64,000 nucleotides of DNA, from NCBI GenBank assembly GCA_961205875.1, contig OY540820.1, positions 4,588,001 through 4,652,000 of the forward strand, written 5' to 3'. The first letter of the stretch is position 1. The number at the start of each line of letters is the position of its first letter. Shown here in pieces: positions 24,590 through 56,536 of this stretch. Origin of the DNA: Sialis fuliginosa. Taxonomy: Eukaryota; Arthropoda; Insecta; Megaloptera; Sialidae. Position numbers and translations under genes: made by a program. The notes below the pieces were generated by a model that was given only the letters and a program-made list of their open reading frames with translations, did not search any database and was not told the origin of the DNA.

Positions 24590-24670
24590 ATGAATATTTC
24601 CGACCATGAATCTACATTCAAATCTATTTACTTCAATTATTATCATATAAAGATTAAAAATAAAGACTAG
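24590..24670 (+). promoter_or_regulatory. Upstream ORF in the receptor 5' UTR
   Basis: A 26-codon reading frame begins six bases into the exon and stops with TAG one base before the main start codon. Termination so close to the main ATG could lower or tune initiation there. That it is translated is an inference. Confidence 0.55.
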
Positions 24671-24671
24671 A

Positions 24672-27600
24672 ATGGATGACATGACAATATTAAAAGAAAT
24701 AATTCAAACAATGCCATCTTCTCAAATAAATGACTCAATCATACTAGAACTTAACAACACACTCGAATTACCTAAAGATGCATTTCCATTCGATATCTAC
24801 ACAACAATAGAGACTAAAATCATATCCAACATGAGTGAATGGGGGCCCAAAAGAGACTCCCTATACATTGTCATACCAATAACAATTCTATACGTCCTAA
24901 TATTCTTCACAGGAGTGATTGGAAACATATCAACTTGCATTGTCATAGCAAAAAACAAAAACTTGCATACAGCAACAAATTATTACTTATTCAGTCTAGC
25001 CATCTCAGATCTGTTACTCCTTGTATCAGGCTTGCCATCTGAAATGTATTACATTTGGAACAAATTCCCCTATATGTTTGGGGAAGTGTTTTGTATTATC
25101 CAAAGTTTCGCTGCTGAGACTTCAGCTAATGCTACAGTTTTAACAATAACTGCTTTTACTGTTGAACGATACGTGGCTATTTGCCATCCATTTCTTTCAC
25201 ATACAATGTCAAATCTATCCCGTGCTGTTAAGTTTGTCATTGCAATTTGGGCTATAGCAATGATACTTGCCATTCCACAGGCAATTTCTTTTGGGCTTGT
25301 TTACGAAACAACAACCAGCGGTTTTATTTTAACTAACCACTACGTATGTACTGTTAAAAAGGAGATTATACCTCATGCATTTGAAATATCAACTATTGTA
25401 TTTTTCATTGCACCGATGTCATTGATAACAATTCTTTATATATTAATCGGGCTACAGTTGAGGAAATCTAATGTAACTAACTCTAGGAGGAATATTAATG
25501 AGAGTAGTGTTAGACTGAAGCATAAAATGTTTAAAGTTCCTGCAAGTGCGTATGATGTAGAGGTACAAATGGACGAAAGAAGTTATAAAAATATTATCAA
25601 TGGAGTTAATACTGAAGGGGGGCTGGGAAAGAATATCAGAGCGCTGCAAGAAAAGAAAAGAGGTTGTTCAGAAGAGGATGGAAGGAAGAATTATAGTAAC
25701 AGATCTCAAACTAGGGCCACGAAACACGTTGTCAAGATGTTAGGTAAAGTATCAAAAATATTTGTTTGCATTAGTGTCAATTTCAAAATAATATGGATTT
25801 TATAATATTTAAAAAAGGTCAGTTTTCTCGAATTTTTTTGGATAACTATATTATTTATCTAAGATTTGGGAAAATTGTATGTTATTAAGCCTACATTAGA
25901 TTTAGGTACATTATATACACTTATCCAAAAAATTAAAGGAACAAACAATTATAACTTTTTTTTAAGTGTTCTTTGAAGAGCTGTATCTCTGTGAAAAATG
26001 GTCGTATCCAAATTTTAAAAAAAGCATTTTAAAGCTTCAAGTTTCTAGTTTTAAGATTTTTTAGCATATTTTTTTTAAGTTACGGTTATCGCGCAATTAA
26101 AAGAAATAGTGGCACACAAAAATTTTCCTATTTTTTTTAAAGGTCCGCGGGCTCTGAAAAATTGTTTTCAGTTAAACCAATGCATTAGTCAGTTAACTTG
26201 TTTATCAGCTTTAATTTGTTTGTTTTTTTTTGGTCCCTCTCTAATTTTTTTTACCGAGATATCTGACTTTAAATGAAAAATTATTCTTTTATCTTCGATC
26301 ATCAATATATCAGCAACTAATGATTAAACAGTAAATTTAAGAGCAGTTTTAAAAATTTGAATAAATTTCCTACAAGACCCTTTTATAACTTTATTGGAAA
26401 AAAAAATTTTTTACCCTCACCATTAGTTTGAAAATGTACAAAAATATGACTTTTTATAGTCTTTTAGTAAATCTACCGCTACTTTACAAATATTGATGGA
26501 AAGACTAATATTGCCAGGTGTTTTTACAGCTTAATGTACCCCGAACAGTACTGTAAATTTTGAAATTGATCCATTGAACCGTTTTTCCGGACCGATTGAT
26601 CAAATTTTGCTTGCATATTAATTCGATTCCAGCATGCGAGACACAAAATTATTTTACAATTTCATACGGTTCCCGCTACGAAAGAATTAATTAATGCAAT
26701 TAATTCAAGATGAGATTAGAATTTTATTTATATTCGGGAGTTCAAAAATAGTGTCACTTCGAAGGCTGTAACTTGAACAAGAGTACATGAAATATCATGA
26801 AAATTTGACAGTATACTAATTAAGGATGATAATCTATGGGAAGCATAAGGATTTTTTTATGTCGCCCAGTGGCGTAGTAAGAAAAATTTTCGGGGGGGGG
26901 GGTTAAGCTTGGGGCTCCCAAAATATGCGAAATTGTTTCGCAAGTTCAAGATCAAATGATCGATAATCTTATAACTAATAAAAAAAAAAGGTCACACAAT
27001 TAAAATTTGAAGACCTTTTTTTTTTAGTCATATATGCAGTCACTTCAAAATTATTTCACATACTTTAAGAACATTTAATATTTCGGGAGGGGTTAATGAT
27101 CACAAAAAAGGTCATTTAATTCAAAATTGTAATAATAATTTCATATATTTAAATAACATAAAATATTTCGGGGGGGGTTTCGACCCCAAAACCCCCCTCG
27201 TTCCTACGCCACTGATGTCGCCATTTATATGTCAGGCCAAAGACTTTTCATCCCATGCAGTATAAGAAAATATTATTTTTTTAAATCGATATTTTTTATC
27301 CATCCCAAAAAAATATCCTTATTTAATTAATTACCTATTATCAGCAACGTCAGATAAAATGTGAGTTAAATATATTTCAGATGGTTTTAATTTCAAGATA
27401 AAACCATATAAGGTAAAGGCAACAGTCTTAGCAAGGACTCCAGTAATGGCAAATTTTTATTTAAATGTACTGAATTAGAAATATGTGTTCATATTTGATT
27501 ACTACCATTTCTGAATATTAATATTAATCTATATACATTTAACTGTTTTACAATAGGTGTCAAAATGGTGGACATTAATTTATTTATAAATTATTATATT

Positions 27601-42029: not shown

Positions 42030-43265
42030 ACACACACCCATATTTCTGAAAATAGTGTAAATATACTATAGTGACCTTAAAATATATAAATGTTTTTAAT
42101 TTAATTTTCATTAGATCGGGCGGGAAAAATACTACGGTGGAGGTAGTTTTAGGGGGGGAGGGAACAACCCCCTATCTCGCACGCATAGAAACCGAAATAT
42201 TTACTGAATTAATCAATATTTAATGAATAAAAAACAAAAAATAATAATATTTCATCTCCTGTCGCATATGAAGGGTTAAAATTAGTATCATTCGTTCGGG
42301 CGGGAAATATACTACGGGAGGGGGGTTTTAAAGGGAAAAACAACCCCTTATCTCGCATTCATAGGAACCGAGATAAATGAATAAAAAAATGAATTGATTT
42401 TCATACAATTTCTAACAATAAGACAAGAGCTATTCCTGGGATTTTGAAAATATAATTTTACACGATCTTTTAAATAACTACGAATGGATTTTATTCAGGT
42501 TTTCACTAATGGATAGGTAAAGTTTAGATGTATAATTTGTGGATATTTTGTGTAAATTTCATGAAGCCGGAAAAAAACAATTCGCAGTGAACTGTGTGTT
42601 GTGGGCATGTTGGGTGAGCATGTTGGATGGGCATGTCGGGTAAGTATGATTACTTTGTTTAATTAAATTAAAATCCCAAACTACAACCGGGTCAAATGCG
42701 CTAGTGTATTATATTTCTTTTTTTAAATTTAATACTGACCTGTCCTAATTATGAATGCAATATATTTATTAATTATTATATTATCATAGCAACTGCTTCA
42801 CATTGTTTTTTTTACGATTCTTTCTCTTATATCTTTTGTGTGTTCATTACTGATTTTACGTTGTTCACTATTGGAGAAAAAACAAACAAAATAAAACGAT
42901 GATTTAAAAAAAAAAAACTATATTTGCGGACTTTGGTAATTAAATTGATTAATTAAATAGAGTTACTTGTTTTATTAGTAACATGAGTTCATGAGAATTA
43001 CAAAAAACAAGCCCATTAATCCAAAAAAACAGTGAAAGTTGCTGTTAAAGTGTCCCAGACTGGTGCCAGTACCTTATCTCTGTTTAAATTTTTTTATTTT
43101 AACAAATAATGCGATATTAAGAAGTTAAAGAAAATTGAAATCAATTTTAAATTTTTAGATCAAGTAAAGTTAGGTTAGGTTAATTTTTGAGGTTCGTACT
43201 GTCCCAAAAATTGGTTTCAGCACCACTGTAAGGACATAATTAATAAAAACAAACGCATACTTGCT
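42030..43265. other. Non-genic stretch between receptor and first Hsc70 gene
   Basis: Two related G-rich blocks (GGGCGGGAAA..ACTACGG and AACCCCxTATCTCGCA) at about 42,118-42,190 and 42,298-42,372 suggest a local duplication. A truncated TAAGGTA-family MITE lies at 42,764-43,076. The remainder shows no gene. Confidence 0.55.
42764..43076 (+). mobile_element. TAAGGTA-family MITE, left end missing
   Basis: The right end CTGGTGCCAGTACCTTA is intact and the interior is collinear with other copies from TTTATTAATTATTATATT onward. Confidence 0.83.
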
Positions 43266-43496
43266 ACAGCTTCTGAAATATAAAAAATAAAACACATTTG
43301 ACTTCTCGAACTGAATTTATTTTTCAATTAAAACAATTAGGCAATTTAGAAATTACGGTACAAAAACAGTTTAAAAGATTTTGAATTTGTATAAGAAAAA
43401 AAAAACAAATACGCAATAATACTGGTGTAAGCAGGAATGGACCTGGAATTTAAAAACTAAAACCAGCGCCTTTGACGCCAGTCACATTATTTGAGT

Positions 43497-45700
43497 TTAA
43501 TCAACTTCCTCGATTGTAGGTCCTGCGCCTCCGGTTCCCGGAGCACCTCCAGCACCTGGAGCTGCTCCACCGGCGCCTGGGAATCCTGGCATACCTCCTG
43601 GTGCTCCGCCTGCACCTTGATACAACTTCGTAATGATCGGATTACATAAACCTTCCAGCTCTTTCTGTTTGTGTTCGTATTCTTCTTTATCGGCCAGTTG
43701 ATTTGCGTCCAACCACCTGATTACTTCGTTGCATTTGTCCATGATTGTTGTCTTGTCACTTTCAGATATCTTGTCCTTTAACTTTTCATCTTCCATTGTG
43801 CTCTTCATGTTGAAGCAATAAGACTCCAGCGCGTTCTTGGCTGAGATTGTGCTCTTTTGTTTCTCGTCTTCGTTACGATACTTCTCCGCATCGTTGACCA
43901 TACGCTCGATTTCTTCTTTGCTCAAACGTCCTTTGTCATTGGTAATGGTGATTTTGTTCTCCTTGCCTGTAATATTTTATTAGTTAATAAAACGTTTTTT
44001 AAATCACAAATAAAAATAAAAGCAAAGAGAAAAAATATCTAATTTTAATATTGTATATTTTAAATATCAGGGAGGGAGGGGGTTGACAATAATGAGAGTT
44101 GATTGAAGCGAATTATTTAAATAATAAATACAATATCACTTACCGGTAGATTTCTCAATAGCGGTTACGTTCAAGATACCGTTAGCGTCAATATCGAATG
44201 TGACTTCAATCTGAGGAACTCCTCGCGGCGCTGGGGGGATTCCAGTCAGTTCGAAACGTCCCAAGCTGTTATTATCTTTGGTCATTGCACGTTCACCTTC
44301 GTAAACTTGAATCAATACACCCGGTTGATTGTCTGAATACGTTGTGAATGTTTGAGTTTGTTTGGTTGGAATCGTAGTGTTACGTTTGATTAAAACAGTC
44401 ATCACACCACCGGCGGTCTCGATTCCCAAAGACAGAGGTGTTACATCTAACAATAGAAGGTCTTGAACTTCTTCAGACTTATCTCCGTGGAGAATTGCAG
44501 CTTGGACTGCGGCACCGTAAGCGACCGCCTCGTCAGGGTTGATCGATTTATTTAATTCTTTACCGTTGAAGAAATCTTGAAGTAGTTTTTGAACTTTAGG
44601 AATACGAGTTGATCCTCCGACTAAAACGATGTCGTGAATCTGTGCCTTGTCCATTTTAGCATCACGTAATGACTTCTCCACAGGCTCCATTGTTGATCTG
44701 AACAAATCCGCGTTCAGTTCTTCAAAACGAGCACGTGTTATCGAGGTGTAGAAATCTATTCCTTCAAACAATGAATCGATCTCGATACTGGCTTGAGTAG
44801 ATGATGAAAGAGTACGTTTCGCCCGTTCACAAGCTGTTCTCAAACGACGTAAAGCACGTTTGTTAGACGTAAGATCTTTCTTGTATTTACGTTTGAATTC
44901 TTGGACAAAGTGATTGACCATACGATTATCGAAATCTTCACCACCCAAATGTGTATCTCCGGCTGTAGATTTTACTTCAAAAATACCATCTTCAATTGTT
45001 AAAATAGAAACATCAAAAGTTCCACCACCCAGATCGAAAATCAATACGTTTCTTTCGCCGACTCCTTTTTTATCTAACCCGTAAGCTATAGCCGCTGCGG
45101 TTGGTTCGTTGATGATACGAAGTACGTTTAAACCGGAAATGGTTCCGGAGTCTTTTGTGGCTTGTCGCTGAGAATCGTTGAAGTAAGCAGGAACTGTGAT
45201 TACGGCGTTTGTTACGGTTTTTCCTAAATATGCTTCGGCAGTTTCCTTCATTTTTGTTAAGACCATTGAACTGACTTCTTCAGGGAAGAAAGTCTTATTT
45301 TCACCCTTGTATTGTACTTGAATCTTTGGTTTACTCGCATCGCTGATAACCGTAAATGGCCAAAACTTCATGTCACCTTGAACTGTTGCATCTTCAAAGC
45401 GACGCCCAATAAGACGTTTTGCATCTAAAAAAAATGTATATTGAAAAATCATAACCCAACTTTAATAATTAATTAATGTTATATTTACGTACCAAAAATT
45501 GTGTTATTGGGATTCATCGCGACTTGATTTTTAGCTGCATCACCGATCAACCTTTCAGTGTCGGTGAACGCAACGTAGGACGGTGTTGTTCTGTTTCCTT
45601 GGTCGTTGGCAATAATTTCGACCTTTCCATGCTGGAAAACTCCTACACATGAGTAAGTGGTACCCAGATCGATTCCTACTGCTGGTGCTTTTGCCGCCAT
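43497..45700 (-). CDS. Hsc70: Cytosolic Hsp70/Hsc70 chaperone, copy A
   Basis: Exons 45,493-45,700, 44,144-45,424 and 43,497-43,966 join in phase to 652 residues; a UTR intron (45,701-45,887) ends directly at the ATG. Hsp70 is an ATP-driven chaperone that folds and disaggregates client proteins with J-domain and exchange-factor partners. The sequence shows [47 protein letters not shown] and [12 protein letters not shown] in the ATPase, the [17 protein letters not shown] linker region, a Gly-rich tail with GGMP and the cytosolic terminus EEVD. The poly(A) signal is at 43,316-43,321. By my count it differs from copy B at about 24 of 1,959 coding bases and two residues. One is MKFWPF where copy B and the family have MKHWPF, the other Ile for Val in AVITVPA. 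The introns differ greatly. Confidence 0.97.
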
Positions 45701-46008
45701 CTGTAATAAAATAATATTATTTTTAAAATCATTTATTATTTTATAATAGGTATGCTTTAGTTTATTATAGCCAACTAGGTTAACTGTGATAATGTGTGTG
45801 ACAAAACGGACAAAACTATCCTAATCTATTACAAAAAATAATTTCAAAATTGAAAGAAAACGTATTTCTTAATAAAATAATAATTACCTTGTATATAATG
45901 TAGAAAAGACTTTAAATAAATATTTAACGCTAATAATTACAATTAACTAATGTACCTAAACTTCTCAGGTTGCCTAATAAATGAGGACGAATACATGAAA
46001 ATGGCCGG

Positions 46009-46015
46009 TTTTATA
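46009..46015 (-). promoter_or_regulatory. TATA box of Hsc70 copy A
   Basis: TATAAAA on the minus strand lies about 120 bases upstream of the 5' UTR exon's donor (45,888) and matches the TATA box of copy B in sequence context (GCCGGTTTTATA versus GCCGATTTTATA on the plus strand). The start site is inferred near 45,980. Confidence 0.8.
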
Positions 46016-46030
46016 CTTACAGAACCGTGT

Positions 46031-46553
46031 TAGTCCAATCAAATTAGACATTTTCTGTACGTGACAAATGGAAAATGGAATCAATATTCGCCTCGATTAT
46101 TTTAGCGCCAATAGATGGTAAATTCTGTCCTTGAATCAAAAATGCAAGACTGTATGCCCTTGATAAATACACGAATAAAAAATAAAAATTAAAAAATTTA
46201 GTGCCGTCTGTATTATGCGAATGAAAAACTCGAATTCGACATATTCTCGATTGAGCTCGAGAATAAGGGCCCAAGGTTTGTCCTGTCCCGCTCCGGAATA
46301 GTTAATCCCACATCCCACTCAAGCATTTAAATATCCCATTCAATAATGATTTAAATACTTGAGCGGAACGCGGGACTTTGACCATCGAGTAAAAAATATT
46401 TATTTTTTACTCAAATCTGTAACCAATCTGAACCGGGTGTCTGGCAACATAATCGGCAGCCTTGTATTTTTTATGTTTTATTAAGGGCATTATTTGCCAT
46501 CAGTTGGCGCTAAAATAATATATTCCATTTAAAAATCTAATTTGATTGGACTA
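46031..46553. mobile_element. Inverted-repeat element inside the Hsc70 copy A promoter
   Basis: Ends TAGTCCAATCAAATTAGA and its reverse complement bound 523 bases, with further matching blocks inside (ATTATTTTAGCGCCAA in both arms). TGT flanks it on both sides, and copy B keeps the uninterrupted sequence (TAT at that site). The superfamily is not clear. No transposase. Confidence 0.92.
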
Positions 46554-46557
46554 TGTT

Positions 46558-46572
46558 AGAACTTTCCAGAAT
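46558..46572 (-). promoter_or_regulatory. Heat-shock element of Hsc70 copy A, displaced
   Basis: AGAACTTTCCAGAAT holds three alternating units GAA-TTC-GAA with two-base spacers, the binding layout for heat-shock factor trimers. The inverted-repeat insertion has moved it about 540 bases upstream of the TATA box. Confidence 0.85.
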
Positions 46573-46859
46573 AATGAAGAATGAAAAAGCATAATAAAAT
46601 GGTGTTCGTACACCAATTTAATCTCGAACCCAGAGACATTACTACGCGTGAATTTGAAACATTATGAAATAAGAAATAATTTACTCATTTTTTAGTAAAA
46701 ATTAAATAATCAACATTTCAATTTAATACAAAGGAAAAATTTAAAACTACTATGATGAATGAGTAATGCAATAGATTTCTATTAATATTTACTAGATTTT
46801 TTACATAATAAATCAAATTATAAATGTATAAGTATTTATTTATAGATTATAATTTTGAA

Positions 46860-48018
46860 AGGATTAACGTAATTTTTATGAAAACCCTAATTTTAAAAAA
46901 ACGTCATTCATATTGATGATTATGCAGATCATCGCATTATCATCTCATGGTCACATTTTCTAGAATAGCCTTTTCTAGTAAATTCCTTGAGAAATACCGT
47001 TTCCTATATCTATACAAGGTATTACACGTATCTGATTTTGATTCATGACGTACCTATGTATTCATATTAAAATGACTCATCAAGATTACAGAATATTTTA
47101 TTGTACATATATTTTAAAATATATTCAAAATAAATATTAATTTAATTTACACCAAAAGGCTAGATTAAAAGAAAATATAGATTTCGTTAAATTTAATAAT
47201 ATACATCTATTTAAGCGATTTTTAATCTTGAATCGTGAGTGCCCACAAAACACGAAATATTGCTGAAAAGTCACAGCAATATTATTTTGTAATATTGTAA
47301 TATTGCCCGCAAGATTCCTGAAACTTTGCTGTAACATTCCTATGTCTCCCCCAAACATTACACTAATCATAAAATAAAAAATTTAAAAAACTAAAAAATT
47401 AAAATTAAAACTTCCTCTTGGGCGGGGCTGGTGGGGAATGGCATGGATAAAAACTTCTGCCATGTGTATATATCTATTTTATAGTTCATAACAAAGGTAT
47501 ACACCGCGCGGCAGAAATTTTCATTCGGTATTTTAGATTTTACAGCATTTTTAAGATTCGCCCCGATTCTGGCCATTTGTAGGCCTTATAGCACCGAAGT
47601 CCCTACATAAAAAATTCTGCCATTATGTTTTTATGTAAGTATACGTACAAATAAACATTTTGCACCAGGTCTGGCCCCGTTGTTATCTGATTTTTTTGGG
47701 TCGAAATTTTGAGGGCCCCCTGTAATTAAACCCCTACGCAAAAATTTCTGCCGTATATCCAAAACATCTTTAATTGGGGTCTACTATAAGCAACCGTCTC
47801 ATTCAAACGGTTGTTACGTGATTCTTTTGTGCGTATTTTTCGTGGGCCCTATCTATTAAATCCCTACAAGCTGGTGGACCGGACTCATCGTCCGAGCTTT
47901 GTCTGAGTGAGACTTCAAAAAAACCACAACGGCAGATGGTTGTTAAATCTACACCGATTTTGCAGCTGGCTCCTATACTATTAGGCTATTTTGTACTTTA
48001 CATACCTTGCCACTAGGG
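46860..48018. other. Non-genic stretch between the Hsc70 copies
   Basis: No gene is seen. The motif TTCTGCC recurs near 47,456, 47,618 and 47,747 and inverted near 47,513, at spacings of about 60 to 160 bases. The reason is not clear. Confidence 0.5.
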
Positions 48019-48340
48019 CAGCGGTCACCAAACTAAGGCCCGCGGGCCGGATCCGGCCCTCCAAAGTTTTTCATCCGGCCCCTGATTTGTATATATAAAT
48101 ATTTTTTATACATATAAGAAATATTAATTTTATATAATTTAAGGATTTGATGTAAATATGTGTATTTATCTACATTTGAATCAATATTTTCCATTATATG
48201 TATATACTCCATTTACATAGCTAATTGCACATTTAAATAAATGTTCTAATAAGATTCCAAGAAGAATATTTTTCGTTCGGCCCCCTATGTTTAAAAAAAA
48301 TTCGATCCGGCCTGTTTTTCGAAAAGTTTGATGACTCCTG
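48019..48340. mobile_element. hAT-type MITE
   Basis: Ends CAGCGGTCACCAAACT and AGTTTGATGACTCCTG with the GGCCCGCGGGCCGG block are typical of hAT MITEs. Flanking CACTAGGG and CACTAGGA agree at 7 of 8 positions. Confidence 0.9.
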
Positions 48341-48628
48341 CACTAGGATATGTGCCGTCGTAGAGACACTTTAACCCATTAATGCCCAAAGGGATAAGTT
48401 TTCAAAAATTATAAGAAATGTTTTGTTAATATGTTTATTTATTTAAAAAATAAGCTTATTTTACAAAAAAAAAATTTTTGGGGGGCCCAAGCTCCCCAAT
48501 TTTTAATGTTGCGTTGACGCACTCTTGGGCGTAAGGGTATAATAGAACTATATGTAGTAAACATATATAAATAAGTGAATCTTAAAATATAACACAAAAA
48601 TTGTTTGATTTTTACAATGTTTACATCT

Positions 48629-48853
48629 GAATCTTGGCTTCTGGGTGTAAGCCGCGTCGATTGATCATGTTAACGTTTCGTCATACATTGCAGTGGACAT
48701 CTTCAGGGCTCTTCTCTACTTTTAGAAGAGCCCTGGAGATGTACACTGCAATGTGTGACGAAACGTTGGCCGATAACACGAACAAATCGACACGGCTTAT
48801 ACTCAGAAGTCAAATCCATATCAAGATCACCGCGGAAGCCTCAAGACTTGTAG
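48629..48853. repeat. Penelope-like terminal modules, head to head
   Basis: A minus-strand copy (about 48,629-48,715) and a plus-strand copy (about 48,719-48,853) of the CTGAAGATGTCCACTGCAAT module meet at TTTTAGAAGAGCCC. Both carry GAAACG(TT). The family name is an inference from the hammerhead-like core. Confidence 0.6.
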
Positions 48854-49561
48854 AATGTTTACATCTCTTTCGTGCATTTGTATCATGTACTCTGATAATA
48901 TTGCCTATAGGTATTTTCATATTGCACATCTTTTCATAAAAAATGTATTAAAGGACGGCCGAGATTAGGATTTGTGTATTGTGGCCATAGGTTCTTGTGT
49001 CTCATCTGCTACTCCCTCGTGCTTTATTAGGGTATCAGCGACATAGGAACGAAAATCAAGTTGGGAAATTTTTTGTCTTATTTGCAATATTGTGAATTTC
49101 CCATGCAATTACTGCTATAATATCTATATCATATTGCCAAATAGTAGCCACCACCATTTTTCCCCACGTATTTTTATACTATAATTCGTACTACTATTAT
49201 CGTGTAAAATTAAATCGACTTCAAAATATGATTATCGTCAATTCCCTCTTCATTACTAAATTCATCTACTTAGAGAGGAATATACCATAAACTGCATCTA
49301 TTTCATAATCACTCATTTCTTCTATTAGTTGCTCGAGTTTCTGCTCTGTTAAAGCTTATCTCATTTTATATGACATCTATATAGAAATAAGTTTCGTTAA
49401 AAAAAATAAAAGTAATTAAAATTTACATAATTCGTATTATTATGAGAATAACTAATAACCATTGTTACGTAATTAACTATTTTTAATATTATTTATATAA
49501 TATGTATATACATATACTAACATTACTAACGTTGTATATTATTTTAAAATTTCACAATAAA

Positions 49562-49790
49562 GATTTGAGGCTTTCGCGGTGATCTGGATATAGATTTTAG
49601 CTTCTGGGTGTGAGCCACGTCAATTTGGTCGTGTTAGATCACACATTACAGTGGACATTAACTACTCACCTTAACTTTTAGAAGGGCACTGAAGATGTCC
49701 ACTGCAATGTGTGACAAAACGATAACACGACCATATTGACGCGGCTTACACCCAGAAGCCAAGATCCATAAAAACAGAGATGATGCACTG
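49562..49790. repeat. Penelope-like terminal modules, second head-to-head pair
   Basis: The arrangement repeats that at 48,629-48,853 with more changes: a minus copy from GAGGCTTTCGCGGTGATC and a plus copy ending AGAAGCCAAGATCCAT. Confidence 0.6.
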
Positions 49791-50022
49791 AACTGCTGAG
49801 GTTTTTACAATAATATCTGTATCGCCACTTGTGTTCATTGTAATACCCAAGAGTGCGTCAACGCACACTAGATATTTCGTTTGGTTTTTTTCAACTAAAC
49901 ATAAACAATTAATTTTTTTAATATGTCTATTCGTAAAATAGACCCATTAGCGATACAGTAACAGTAAAAAAATATTGATAAATATCACAGGTTATTTCAA
50001 TTTATTGAAAATGTAAACATAT

Positions 50023-52241
50023 CCCAGTAATCGAAAAAGTAATCAAACAGAATCATATTTTGACGTTTCATTCCGGAATCTGTTAAATTCCGTAATCAAA
50101 TTTAATAATGTCAATCTGTTTAATTACGATTTAATACGATCAAGCGGTCTGAAGATGTTTGCAGTACTACCAATCCATGATACAATTTACCAATACACAT
50201 TGCCAACCTTTCTTTTAACTGTAAATTTTGATTCCGATTTAGTTCGAATGATTACGTTGATTCCGTATCGTTCCGGTAAACGACATTCAGTTTGAAAATA
50301 TTCAATACGTATTATTACGTTCGGTGTTTTGAATCCGGTTTATTATGTTTTAAGGAATTCAGATTGGAGGTTTCGAATACGGATCATTATGGTTCTCAAC
50401 TATGTTCGTTTTAATACGTTTTTTGGAACTGAATCGTAATTAAACAAATTCAGTTTACTGAATGTCAGCACTAAATGAATACGGTTTATAACGAAAGATT
50501 CAGTTACTATAAAAATTAGATATTATCATTGTAATTTTCAAAACGTAGCATTTGAACGGTAATTTAATAGTTTACATCACCTTTTTTTATTATATCACGG
50601 GGATGACATGATAAAATTTGAGTCGTTTGGCATATAAGAGGTAATAGAGTGTTTTGCAAAATAGTACAACATTGATACAATTGAAGACGCCATTTGTTTT
50701 TTTTTGTTTTCTTAAAATGACGCAATTACTTAATGTCGACACGTATTATGAGTTTACTCGATTTTAAAACTATATTGAACCAAAGTTTCGACAAAAATGT
50801 GACGAGAAACTGGAAACTGTGGTCACAGAAGTTTGAAAATTGAAATATTCCGTTCTAATTGGTTATGATTGACTATTACAGAACTTTCGAATACAAGAAA
50901 AATGAAGGTATCTCTCTTATTTTCAATATATTATAAAAGGTAAAGGGCTATGGAATTTTTTATAACAATAATATGTACATAATTTTATTTAGATAATTAA
51001 TTTTCAACAAATAAATGTTTTTTTAGTTTCCAATCTGACAGAAAATAAGAAGTGATTATTGAAATTTAGATATTAATAATACATGAAGAATGTCAGTTGA
51101 ATTTTTGACGGAGTCCAGTAGTTTGAGAGCTAAAAAGAGTACATCGAGCGTATTCCAAGATTAATTATTAACCTTTAGCTAGTGAAACGAACAGGTGCCG
51201 TCTGTGAAAGTGATAATTTTAAGGACAAAAAAAACGTTATTCTAACAAAATATCTTGAAACTATTAATGTAACTTGAATGTCTGGCTAATACGGAGTGTA
51301 TGGATGTCCACTGTCAGATTTATCAATAATCACGTAAATAATTATTCAGAATAGAGTTGATGCTCTAATAATATACATGTTAACTGTCCTTGGTTAGAGT
51401 TGATTAGTTTTTGTTAGGTTCGGTTAGGTTAAAAACGGAGAATCAATCTCCGCCACAACGAACTGTTTTAAAATAATTTTATCAATTAAAATAAATATGA
51501 AGGTAAAAATGTTCTAGTCATGCATGCGCATAAACTCTATTCTAAATTACTATATACATAATTTTTAACAATTCTGACAGGGGACACCCATATACTCCGT
51601 ATTTACCGAACGTCTAAGTATTATTTTTGCTAAATTGTTAACAGAAAAATTTTAAGAAAAAAAAGCTTACTAAAAAATCAGTTGATCGCAGTATTAAAAT
51701 ATGATTAATTGCGCATGACTATTTCAAAGCACAAAACAGTACCAAATCAAATATTAGGTATCATTTCAACTTATTTTTATATAATTTACAAGTAAAAACA
51801 GTTTAAAAACCACTAATTTTTGTTTTGCATGCATGCTCGCTCGATATATCAATGCTAATATATCTATCCTTGTTTACATAACCTATAAAAAAAATGTCAA
51901 TATATGTATTAAATGATGTGAATATTATGTATTTATTGTTGTTTTTTTGTAAAATATTATATTGAATGTGTATTTATTGTATAAAATAAATTTCAGGTGA
52001 AATTATTTAAATAAATATTAATTTTATCACGCGTCAATTACATCCATAGACTTATATTTGTACCCGCGTCATTTGCAACCATAGACTTATATTTGTATCG
52101 TATTTCCTGAATCCGGTAATATTCGTTTTAGTTCGGTTAGTTTGATTTCTCATTCCGTATTAATACAAAAAATGGAATTCAGATTCCGGAATAAAACAGA
52201 ATGGTATTTCATTCCGTTTGATTACTTTTTCGATTACTGGG
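50023..52241. mobile_element. Unclassified 2.2 kb inverted-repeat element in the piggyBac-like element
   Basis: Ends CCCAGTAATCGAAAAAGTAA and the matching right end are inverted over about 30 bases. The interior has many ATTCCGxxTTxATTACG-like motifs on both sides and no recognisable protein. The flanking AT on each side gives no clear duplication length. A further element is nested at about 51,289-51,602. Confidence 0.75.
51289..51602. mobile_element. Small inverted-repeat element related to the 8,428 palindrome
   Basis: Ends ATACGGAGTGTATGGATGTC and the partner ending ATACTCCGTAT are inverted. The interior block TAGAATAGAG..GATGCTCTAATAATATAC is shared with 8,428-8,634. Confidence 0.7.
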
Positions 52242-52443
52242 ATGTGCGAAAATTCTCTATTTTACGTATTTTTAAATATGAATAATAATTCTAACAAAAA
52301 TTATATAACTATTTTGGCAGAATTAAAGAAAGGCTCTTCTTCTACTAAACCCATATAATAATAAAAGAAAACAAAAATTTTATATTATTAAAAAAAAATA
52401 GTTTTCATAATGTTGCGTTGACGCACTCTTGGGCGTTAATGGG

Positions 52444-52963
52444 TTAATCAACCCTATGCCGTCGATGGTAGCGACGCCGTCAGTGGTAAAAATCGTAACT
52501 AACACAATCGGGTCAACTGTTATATACCCAACCTAACTTAACCGATGTTTAGTAAATATTTTAATTGGTAATTATATACGTTTAACAATTAAGAGTATTT
52601 AATTTCCTTTATAAAGAAAAGAAGTAAAATTCTTCAAAATAATTTCTCATTTTAATTAAACACGTTTTTCAAACGAACAACTGACCCGATAAGAACAATT
52701 CCTTTTTTCACTTCACGTTCACCGTCACATACAATCTAAGATACTTATAATACAAACCAGGTAGCACACTAATGTTTTATTATAACTTACTATGTGATTC
52801 AGCAGATCTGCTAAATCATGCTACTGAATTGCCAGTGTGTAAGAGGTCTAAGAACCAAATCAACTCTATAGCTCTAAATCAAATTTAATTTTTAGTGAGA
52901 CTGGGAGGAATCACACATTGACCTGATTTCAATTGTCAATTTTTACTTAACGTTGCTTCAGCT
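52444..52963. other. Non-genic stretch downstream of Hsc70 copy B
   Basis: No gene is seen. The flank is unrelated to that of copy A, so the duplicated block ends near 52,966. Confidence 0.55.
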
Positions 52964-53189
52964 TCTGAAATATAAAAAATAAAACACATTTGACTTCTCA
53001 AAATGAATTTATTTTCGAATTAAAACAATTAGGCAATTTAGAAATTACGGTACAAAAACAGTTTAAAACTTTTTGAATTTGTATAAGAAAAAAAAAAACA
53101 AATACGTAATAATACTGGTGTAAGCAGGAATGGGCCTGGAATTTAAAAACTAAAACCAGCGCCTTTGACGCCAGTCACATTATTCCAGT

Positions 53190-55353
53190 TTAATCAACTT
53201 CCTCGATTGTAGGTCCTGCGCCTCCGGTTCCCGGAGCACCTCCAGCACCTGGAGCTGCTCCACCGGCGCCTGGGAATCCTGGCATACCTCCTGGTGCTCC
53301 GCCTGCACCTTGATACAACTTCGTAATGATCGGATTACATAAACCTTCCAGCTCTTTCTGTTTGTGTTCGTATTCTTCTTTATCGGCCAGTTGATTTGCA
53401 TCCAACCACCTGATTACTTCGTTGCATTTGTCCATGATTGTTGTCTTGTCACTTTCAGATATCTTGTCCTTTAACTTTTCATCTTCCATTGTGCTCTTCA
53501 TGTTGAAGCAATAAGACTCCAGCGCGTTCTTGGCTGAGATTGTGCTCTTTTGTTTCTCGTCTTCGTTACGATACTTCTCCGCATCGTTGACCATACGCTC
53601 GATTTCTTCTTTGCTCAAACGTCCTTTGTCATTGGTAATGGTGATTTTGTTCTCCTTGCCTGTAATAATTAATTAGTTAATAAAACGTTTCTTAAATGAC
53701 AAATAAAGAAAAGGCACAGAGGAGGAAGGGGTTGATAACGGAGAGAGTTGATTGCAGTGACGAGGAAAGCGACAATTCAAAAGATAAATATAATATCACT
53801 TACCGGTAGATTTCTCAATAGCGGTTACGTTCAAGATACCATTAGCGTCAATATCAAATGTGACTTCAATCTGAGGAACTCCTCGAGGCGCTGGCGGGAT
53901 TCCAGTCAGTTCGAAACGTCCCAAGCTGTTATTATCTTTGGTCATTGCACGTTCACCTTCGTAAACTTGAATCAATACACCTGGTTGATTGTCTGAATAC
54001 GTTGTGAATGTTTGAGTTTGTTTGGTTGGAATCGTAGTGTTACGTTTGATTAAAACAGTCATCACACCACCGGCGGTCTCGATTCCCAAAGACAGAGGTG
54101 TTACATCTAACAATAGAAGGTCTTGAACTTCTTCAGACTTATCTCCATGGAGAATTGCAGCTTGGACTGCGGCGCCGTAAGCGACCGCCTCGTCAGGGTT
54201 GATCGATTTATTTAATTCTTTACCGTTGAAGAAATCTTGAAGTAGTTTTTGAACTTTAGGAATACGAGTTGATCCTCCGACTAAAACGATGTCGTGAATC
54301 TGTGCCTTGTCCATTTTAGCATCACGTAATGACTTCTCCACAGGCTCCATTGTTGATCTGAACAGATCCGCGTTCAGTTCTTCAAAACGAGCACGTGTTA
54401 TCGAGGTATAGAAATCTATTCCTTCAAACAATGAATCAATTTCGATACTGGCTTGAGTAGATGATGAAAGAGTACGTTTCGCCCGTTCACAAGCTGTTCT
54501 CAACCGACGTAAAGCACGTTTGTTAGACGTAAGATCTTTCTTGTATTTACGTTTGAATTCTTGGACAAAGTGATTGACCATACGATTATCGAAATCTTCA
54601 CCACCCAAATGTGTATCTCCGGCTGTTGATTTTACTTCAAAAATACCATCTTCAATTGTTAAAATAGAAACATCAAAAGTTCCACCACCCAGATCGAAAA
54701 TCAATACGTTTCTTTCGCCGACTCCTTTCTTATCTAATCCGTAAGCTATAGCTGCTGCGGTTGGTTCGTTGATGATACGAAGTACGTTTAAGCCGGAAAT
54801 GGTACCGGAGTCTTTTGTGGCTTGTCGCTGAGAATCGTTGAAATAAGCAGGAACTGTGACTACGGCGTTTGTTACGGTTTTTCCTAAATATGCTTCGGCA
54901 GTTTCCTTCATTTTTGTTAAGACCATTGAACTGACTTCTTCAGGGAAGAAAGTCTTATTTTCACCCTTGTATTGTACTTGAATCTTTGGTTTACTCGCAT
55001 CGCTGATAACCGTAAATGGCCAATGCTTCATGTCACCTTGAACTGTTGCATCTTCAAAGCGACGCCCAATAAGACGTTTGGCATCTAAAAAAAAATTTTA
55101 TATTCAAAAAACATAAACCAACTTTTGCATTAAGTATTTACATACCAAAAATTGTGTTATTGGGATTCATCGCGACTTGATTTTTAGCTGCATCACCGAT
55201 CAACCTTTCAGTGTCGGTGAACGCAACGTAGGACGGTGTTGTTCTGTTTCCTTGGTCGTTGGCAATAATTTCGACCTTTCCATGCTGGAAAACTCCTACA
55301 CATGAGTAAGTGGTACCCAGATCGATTCCTACTGCTGGTGCTTTTGCCGCCAT
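53190..55353 (-). CDS. Hsc70: Cytosolic Hsp70/Hsc70 chaperone, copy B
   Basis: Exons 55,146-55,353, 53,804-55,084 and 53,190-53,659 give the same 652-residue layout as copy A with identical intron positions and phases; introns are 61 and 144 bases, and a 144-base UTR intron (55,354-55,497) precedes the ATG. All Hsp70 signatures listed for copy A are present, with the consensus MKHWPF and VVTVPA, and it ends IEEVD. The poly(A) signal is at 53,008-53,013. Exon 1 is identical to copy A at every base and exon 3 differs at one, while introns are hard to align. The TATA box and heat-shock element are in the compact classical arrangement, so this copy looks the better candidate for heat induction. 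Intron-bearing genes of this type are usually constitutive (family knowledge). Confidence 0.97.
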
Positions 55354-55605
55354 CTGTAATAAAATAACATTATTTTTAAAATCATTGTTTATTAGCCAAC
55401 TAGACCAATTGTGACAAAACTAACCTAATTGAATATTACAAAAAAATAATTAAAAACTGAAAGAAAATTTATTTCATAATAATAAAATAATATTTACCTT
55501 ATATATAATGTAGAAAAGTATTTAAATAAATATTTAATACTATTAATGTACTTAACACTACTCCGTTTGCCTAACAAATGAGAATGAAGAAATGAAAATG
55601 GCCGA

Positions 55606-55612
55606 TTTTATA
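55606..55612 (-). promoter_or_regulatory. TATA box of Hsc70 copy B
   Basis: TATAAAA on the minus strand, about 21 bases from the heat-shock element and about 110 from the UTR donor at 55,498. Transcription is inferred to start near 55,577-55,580. Confidence 0.82.
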
Positions 55613-55633
55613 CAGAACGTACAGAACCGTATT

Positions 55634-55648
55634 AGAACTTTCCAGAAA
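55634..55648 (-). promoter_or_regulatory. Heat-shock element of Hsc70 copy B
   Basis: AGAACTTTCCAGAAA is a perfect three-unit element (GAA, TTC, GAA with two-base spacers). It sits directly upstream of the TATA box, as in classical heat-inducible promoters. Confidence 0.9.
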
Positions 55649-56094
55649 ATAATACCTTGTCTTGGCATGTGGTATTGGTTACACAAGTTAATCTCGAAAC
55701 CAATGGCACTACTATGCGTGAATTTAAAATATTATAAAATAAGAAAAAATTTACGCATTTTTATTATTAGCAAAAATAAAATAATCAACGTTTAAATTTA
55801 TTGTACACATTAGTTATAAATTTAATCATATATTTATTTAATTCTTATTTCTGTTTAATTAAATGGAAATGGCGGGAAATTATTGTATGTGTCAATACAC
55901 TTTTTCTATTAATATATTTACTAGATTTTTGTAACAATATAATTATAGATTATTATCTATCAGTATCTAAATAAGGTGCGATTTGGGATTAGGGCAAAAA
56001 GGGATCAGGGAAAAGACCTCTAATAATTTATATAAATCGTTTGTTTTATAATACAAAAAACATGTATAATAAGATTTATTTGTACCGTTGGCCC

Positions 56095-56360
56095 ACGTGA
56101 GCCATGTCGTAAATTATTTAAAAAACTTAGCATTTTGACCCTATTTGACATGCTCATATACGAGTGTGCAATTTTTCTTAGATCCAATCCGGAAATATTT
56201 GAAGAATATTTACCGAAACACAACTATGATACAAGAAAAAAAGATTTCAAAGTAATCAAAACTAGATTACAATTAATCAACAAAGGAACATTCAATATCA
56301 TTGTCATAATATACAACACTATAAAACAAACAATTTTAAGATATTTAATTTAATTTTTAT
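56095..56360 (+). pseudogene. LINE 3' tail remnant
   Basis: The frame reads LFDMLIYECAIFLRSNPE, KHNYDTRKKDFKV and NIIVIIYN, matching the C-terminal end of the LINE at 22,250-23,690 (LPSLYIYECAVFF, HNYNTRNKD). Only about 75 codons remain. It ends near AT-rich sequence just downstream of TMEM161. Confidence 0.8.
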
Positions 56361-56536
56361 TTAATTTTAATTTTTTTATTATAATTTTTTTTTTTATATC
56401 TTAATTTTTGGTTTTGTGCTGATGTGTTCCATATTATTATATGATTTAATCTGAATAAAAAATATTATTATTATTATTTTTATTTCTAAAAAAAGCTTAA
56501 CATTCATATTGTCAATGACCAAATACAACAAAAAGA

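Follow-up and report, generated by a model that had tools for sequence, protein, structure and literature searches.

Two nearly identical Hsc70 genes stand side by side in Sialis fuliginosa, and in one of them, copy A, a transposon separates a perfect heat-shock element (HSE) from the TATA box to which it lies close in the other, copy B. The window that holds both genes is a stretch of 64,000 nucleotides (contig OY540820.1, positions 4,588,001 to 4,652,000), and all positions given here count from its first letter. The gap between HSE and TATA is 543 bp in copy A and 22 bp in copy B, values that agree with the roughly 540 and 21 bases given in a preliminary description of this DNA. An account in which the transposon entered copy A after the genes had duplicated, and left this copy with a weaker or otherwise altered response to heat, is probably correct as a whole. 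That copy A should respond to heat less strongly, or differently, is itself plausible, judging from the layout of its promoter.

The genes are arranged in tandem on the minus strand, and each encodes 652 amino acids in an open reading frame when splice sites are assigned by motif. When the genome was searched (392 Mb in 20 contigs, with the twins on contig C12), PF00012 matched 27 stretches, and copies A and B gave the sole matches in their C12 neighborhood. The proteins had been called nearly identical, and they indeed differ at only two of 652 residues (position 90, F in A and H in B; position 145, I in A and V in B). Coding divergence is low (dN 0.002, dS 0.050, with 21 silent sites distinguishing the copies), with no differences among the 208 nucleotides of exon 1 and one among the 470 of exon 3, and the 3' UTR together with the sequence that follows diverges by 0.055. 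Aligned introns are more distant, with JC values of 0.150 for intron 1, 0.187 for intron 2, and 0.126 for the 5' UTR intron, and they carry indels besides. Because the exons are so much closer than the introns, the pattern suggests that exons have been homogenized by gene conversion or held by strong codon constraint while introns and promoters were diverging.

The difference at residue 90 deserves separate mention. It requires a two-base change (TTT at 45363-45365 in A, CAT at 55023-55025 in B) within an MK-H-WPF motif, and His occupies this position in all four intronless Hsp70 paralogues of the genome as well as in the two PDB alignments shown (7kw7_C and 5fpn_A). With Phe at codon 90, the function of copy A may be changing in addition to its regulation.

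Both copies carry the same perfect three-unit HSE, as had been claimed, and the match between them extends over 13 of 13 bases. On the two strands of the whole window, five perfect three-unit HSEs are present compared to 0.96 expected, and none of 100 shuffles reached five. Within the 60 bp upstream of the copy B TATA, a perfect HSE arose in just 13 of 20,000 dinucleotide shuffles. Chance is ruled out as a full account by this low frequency and by the identity of the HSE in A and B, which are paralogues and so do not count as independent occurrences. A shared TATA context had also been proposed. This holds for the motif, in that TATAAAA is present in both copies and 14 of 15 bases agree from its first T, but copy B has five extra bases beside TATA. 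Because of these additional bases, the gap in copy A would be 17 bp without the insert, versus 22 bp in B.

No HSE matching at least 8/9 positions was found between the TATA and the HSE of copy A, and one 8/9 match lies farther upstream, at 46973-46985. The idea that the transposon brought in the HSE is rejected, as the best match within the inserted DNA reaches 6/9 and thus offers no substitute.

Once the insert is removed from copy A and one TGT is retained, its promoter aligns with that of copy B without gaps from the HSE up to the 5-bp difference beside TATA, and 32 of the 35 positions aligned in the 40 columns downstream of the HSE are identical. Upstream of the HSE, identity is 23/44 aligned positions at -50 to 0, 41/50 at -100 to -50, and 60/81 at -200 to -100, and it drops to 89/171 beyond -200. 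The preliminary description made no mention of this conserved block above the HSE, which has been displaced too. The insertion parts a whole conserved module, consisting of HSE and upstream block, from the core promoter, rather than the HSE alone. Calling the twins a natural promoter comparison is justified in the sense that they are matched and constitute a real natural experiment. However, the comparison is not one of a single variable, given that the promoters differ beyond the insert.

Positions of the promoter, gene, and transposon features of the two Hsc70 copies within the window
Feature	Positions	Strand	Remarks
Hsc70 copy A	43497..45700	-	coding exons 45493-45700, 44144-45424, 43497-43966; 652 aa, open; motif splice sites; PF00012 match
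Predicted 5' UTR intron, copy A	45701..45887	-	GTAATT...TTACAG, ends at ATG; splice sites conserved with B
TATAAAA, copy A	46009..46015	-	TATA role inferred
Target-site duplication TGT, TATA side	46028..46030	.	alignment, flank test
523-bp non-coding TIR element, MITE-like	46031..46553	.	between HSE module and TATA of copy A; tips TAGTCCAATC...GATTGGACTA
Candidate cryptic TATA TATATTATT in the element	46514..46522	-	36 bp downstream of HSE; speculative
Target-site duplication TGT, HSE side	46554..46556	.	alignment, flank test
Perfect three-unit HSE TTCTGGAAAGTTC, copy A	46559..46571	-	motif match, tail-type
Conserved upstream block, copy A	46612..46725	-	limits approximate, by eye from gapped alignment with B
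Hsc70 copy B	53190..55353	-	coding exons 55146-55353, 53804-55084, 53190-53659; 652 aa, open; motif splice sites; PF00012 match
Predicted 5' UTR intron, copy B	55354..55497	-	GTAAAT...TTACAG
TATAAAA, copy B	55606..55612	-	TATA role inferred
Perfect three-unit HSE TTCTGGAAAGTTC, copy B	55635..55647	-	motif match, tail-type

The inserted DNA is a non-autonomous TIR transposon of the MITE-like kind. Its length of 523 bases and its TGT flanks had been given exactly, and the inverted-repeat structure claimed for it is evident both from its outer arms (91% complementary over 23 nt and 84% over 37 nt) and from the folding of the strand at 46025-46560, which is far better than that of shuffled versions (z -12.8, 0 of 100). 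The element is 65% AT, and its longest stop-to-stop frame amounts to 85 aa. Its ends match at least 95 genomic stretches (several per copy, and counting the element itself), a lower bound that comes from scoring 40 of 344 candidates. The middle (query 46200-46460) gave 31 matches including itself, in pieces only (approximately 46218-46284 and 46285-46354), and no full-length relative of this part was found in the genome search. Because two short internal stretches recur elsewhere in the genome, the middle of the element (46218-46354) looks composite. An Rfam scan of 42900-56500 returned no matches at the gathering score.

Target duplication was assessed in the window copy and nine of 20 fetched loci, with two loci set aside where a tip could not be placed (L013 and L017) and nine where one end only was matched (L020-L028). 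The ten copies scored are 310-1029 bp in length, and eight of them, including the window copy, have identical 3-bp flanks, a count attained in 0 of 10,000 shuffles, for which the mean was 2.2. The matching flanks are TAA (three copies), ATT (two copies), TGT, AAC, and ACA, and the misses are L010 (TGA/TAA) and L018 (ATA/TAA). The transposon reading put forward earlier is therefore well supported, by the repeat family, the inverted ends, the target duplication, and the empty site in copy B. The MITE-like designation reflects terminal inverted repeats, a 3-bp target duplication with an empty site, and a short, multicopy sequence without a transposase. When frames of at least 90 aa were inspected by eye in three stretches beside family copies and in the loci of those copies, no clear transposase of an autonomous partner was seen.

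Several transposon superfamilies can be recognized by their targets or tips, including the TWA target of PIF/Harbinger, the CACTA/G tip of CACTA, and the TA target duplication of Tc1/mariner. The mark of PIF/Harbinger does not fit this family, whose matching flanks include TGT, AAC, ACA, and ATT besides TAA, and neither does that of CACTA, the tip being TAGTCC or TAGACC in most copies. TA does occur at the tips, but Tc1/mariner is rejected, in that eight of ten copies show a further 3-bp match just beyond TAG...CTA and the empty site in B fits a duplication of 3 bp, not 2 bp. Within the family, copies L002 and L003 lie about 68 kb apart on contig C4 with equal match extent and scores, and in the alignment L003 has the same left end as L020, a locus that covers the place of L002. 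These equal matches and identical left ends suggest that L002 and L003 arose by a recent segmental duplication.

Other features were noted in the window. A stretch at about 48029-48335 has the ends CAGCGGTCACCAAACT...GTTTGATGACTCCTG with CACTAGG flanking both sides, which makes it a candidate short hAT-type element with its target duplication. A nested fold-back occupies 48510-49865; its inverted repeats measure 34-69 nt and are 80-94% complementary. A perfectly matched 20-nt pair, TGCGTTGACGCACTCTTGGG (positions 48510 and 49846), encloses about 1.36 kb. The open frame of a seven-helix receptor at 24651-25805 may represent a neuropeptide (pyrokinin-like) receptor, going by resemblance.

Given the clean empty site in copy B, which bears no insertion footprint, insertion into copy A after the gene duplication is the simplest order of events. 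Divergence within the transposon family provides a less direct guide to age. The left end of the element differs at 24 of 167 positions (JC 0.16) from the majority sequence of 20 further copies, a set that includes the near-identical L003 and L020, and the right end differs at 39 of 137 positions (JC 0.36) from the majority of ten others, a value that is inflated because the inner part seems not to be homologous. Left-end distances from the element to 19 others have a median JC of 0.252, with the nearest at 0.199, and the corresponding value among those others is 0.241 (171 pairs). No near-identical copy of the element is present among the copies compared. Had a consensus copy entered once the genes had duplicated, about half of the A-B intron divergence (JC 0.13-0.19 in total) would be predicted, and the divergence of the element is greater than that half, which makes the dating ambiguous. 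Subfamilies and gene conversion both blur such estimates, and insertion before the duplication is not concluded from them.

The proposed history would begin with a tandem duplication that produced two Hsc70 genes, each equipped with a TATA box, a proximal three-unit HSE, and the conserved upstream block. A non-autonomous TIR transposon would then have entered copy A between HSE and TATA, duplicating TGT in the process. Copy A is most likely still transcribed from its old start, which was probably retained because the coding gene, TATA, predicted 5' UTR, and splice sites are intact. In that arrangement, HSF at the HSE and the factors at the upstream block would have to bridge about 540 bp, where formerly the distance was about 20. 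Copy A would be expected to respond to heat more weakly or more slowly, perhaps with an altered basal level, such that copy B would carry the heat response.

Other hsp70 genes of the same genome offer a standard for the spacing. Four intronless Hsp70 genes (L029, L030, L031, and L032) reside elsewhere, and the TATA-gap test covered L029, L030, and L032, whose label as inducible-type genes was read from their promoters. In all three, 8/9 HSEs lie 24-29 bp from TATA, and one perfect HSE lies 125 bp away; in L031, the only perfect three-unit HSE within 1.5 kb upstream is located 999 bp above the ATG. An HSE close to TATA, which is a mark of the heat-inducible Hsp70-type promoter, is present in copy B and lacking in copy A. 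Thus, in its HSE-TATA spacing, copy B is like the three inducible-type hsp70 paralogues and copy A is the exception. Two of three hsp70 genes have GAGAG/CTCTC within 500 bp upstream of their ATG, but the motif was not found upstream of TATA in copy A (1030 bp) or copy B (500 bp). Because this motif is missing above its TATA, copy B itself may be just mildly inducible.

The alternative with the best claim to attention, albeit an unlikely one, is that the promoter tolerates distance, with HSF at -540 looping to the core so that copy A would be induced about as well as copy B. HSF binding at Hsp promoters is reported to fall mostly within 1250 bp of the TSS (PMC4717527), a range that would accommodate the insertion. 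Furthermore, the 526 bp contributed by the element and TGT come near 50 helical turns, and the left end of the element is as diverged as that of a typical family copy, so the insertion might have persisted for a long time. A related case from Liriomyza sativae is instructive (PMC3105046). There, a 495-bp insert (ATRS1) between HSE2 and HSE3 of hsp70 lowered reporter activity, yet native promoters with the insert were still inducible, up to about tenfold. Inducibility was kept when ATRS1 was swapped for random sequence of 75% AT and was reduced with 50% AT, and the AT content of the Sialis element falls between these two replacements. However, HSE1 and HSE2 stayed proximal in Liriomyza (PMC3105046), whereas nothing at or above the 8/9 threshold remains near the TATA of copy A. 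A close HSE is also the rule where it can be compared, being near-perfect in the three hsp70 paralogues tested and perfect in copy B.

Hsc70 genes are mostly constitutive, and the HSE might therefore drive little in either copy, in which case the insertion would have no effect on a heat response that is nearly absent. This reading is improbable, despite the lack of GAGAG/CTCTC upstream of either copy and the presence of four intronless Hsp70 genes, three with an HSE near TATA, that could bear the response. HSEs accompany hsc70-4 in most of the insects sampled in one survey and are absent from the D. melanogaster gene, and heat induces two ant hsc70-4 genes in which HSEs are conserved (PMC4717527); the fly gene fits a constitutive role and the ant genes speak against it. 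Moreover, the HSE has stayed perfect and unchanged in copies A and B although the adjacent 50 columns upstream have diverged to the low identity given above, and its placement in B resembles that of the three hsp70 genes.

It is more doubtful still that the element supplies a new core promoter, with the HSE driving a start inside it at TATATTATT and the old TATA working without an HSE. The motif sits 36 bp below the HSE, and the element lacks 12 family-consensus bases at this very site, but the DNA here is AT-rich and offers many motifs of the kind, about 6-11 in each kb of that strand. Also, a transcript begun at 46490, an assumed start within the element, would have nine upstream ATGs in its leader, versus none from the assumed native start of either copy (45980 in A). 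We assign the lowest probability of all, a very small one, to a split promoter, in which the HSE and upstream block would fire a heat-induced start in the element, and a leader rich in upstream ATGs would extend across the old TATA. Under heat, Hsc70 output from copy A would then be repressed and that from copy B would go up. If true, near-identical chaperone genes would have been wired with opposite signs by one transposon.

The favored account, that of weakened or altered induction of copy A, and its strongest competitor would both be informative. If copy A is uninduced and copy B is induced, the twins would reveal in nature what proximity to the core promoter an HSE requires, and they would represent a case wherein a transposon splits the duties of a duplicated chaperone gene whose proteins remain nearly the same. 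If both are equally induced, tolerance of distance would be illustrated just as clearly.

Insertion of transposable elements into heat-shock promoters is an established phenomenon that is already known from flies. P elements in hsp70 promoters were reportedly described by Lerman and Feder in 2005 and by Chen et al. As in those cases, a multicopy chaperone gene has a transposon in its proximal heat-shock promoter; unlike them, the insert of copy A is a non-coding TIR element of another family, it affects a cognate Hsc70, and it is seen in a single assembled genome. A search at the level of titles and abstracts, with subscription literature mostly outside its reach, found no report of an insertion of this kind in an Hsc70 promoter among the papers listed.

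ATRS1 shares with the Sialis element the character of an AT-rich extra stretch of about 500 bp that changes HSE spacing in an insect hsp70 promoter, but it left proximal HSEs in place, whereas the sole good proximal HSE of copy A has been parted from TATA. Nor was ATRS1 identified as a transposon in the accessible portion of its report (PMC3105046), whereas the copy A insert is a TIR element. Duplicated insect hsc70-4 genes are comparable in being cognate Hsc70 duplicates with a proximal HSE, the paralogues of which differ in HSE layout and induction. In Hymenoptera, however, the duplication is old and no transposon is named in the available part of that work (PMC4717527), whereas in Sialis one insertion makes up most of the difference in HSE-TATA distance. 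Particularly appealing in the Sialis genes is the combination of a matched twin, which preserves a nearly clean empty site, with the splitting of the sole good proximal HSE from the core promoter.
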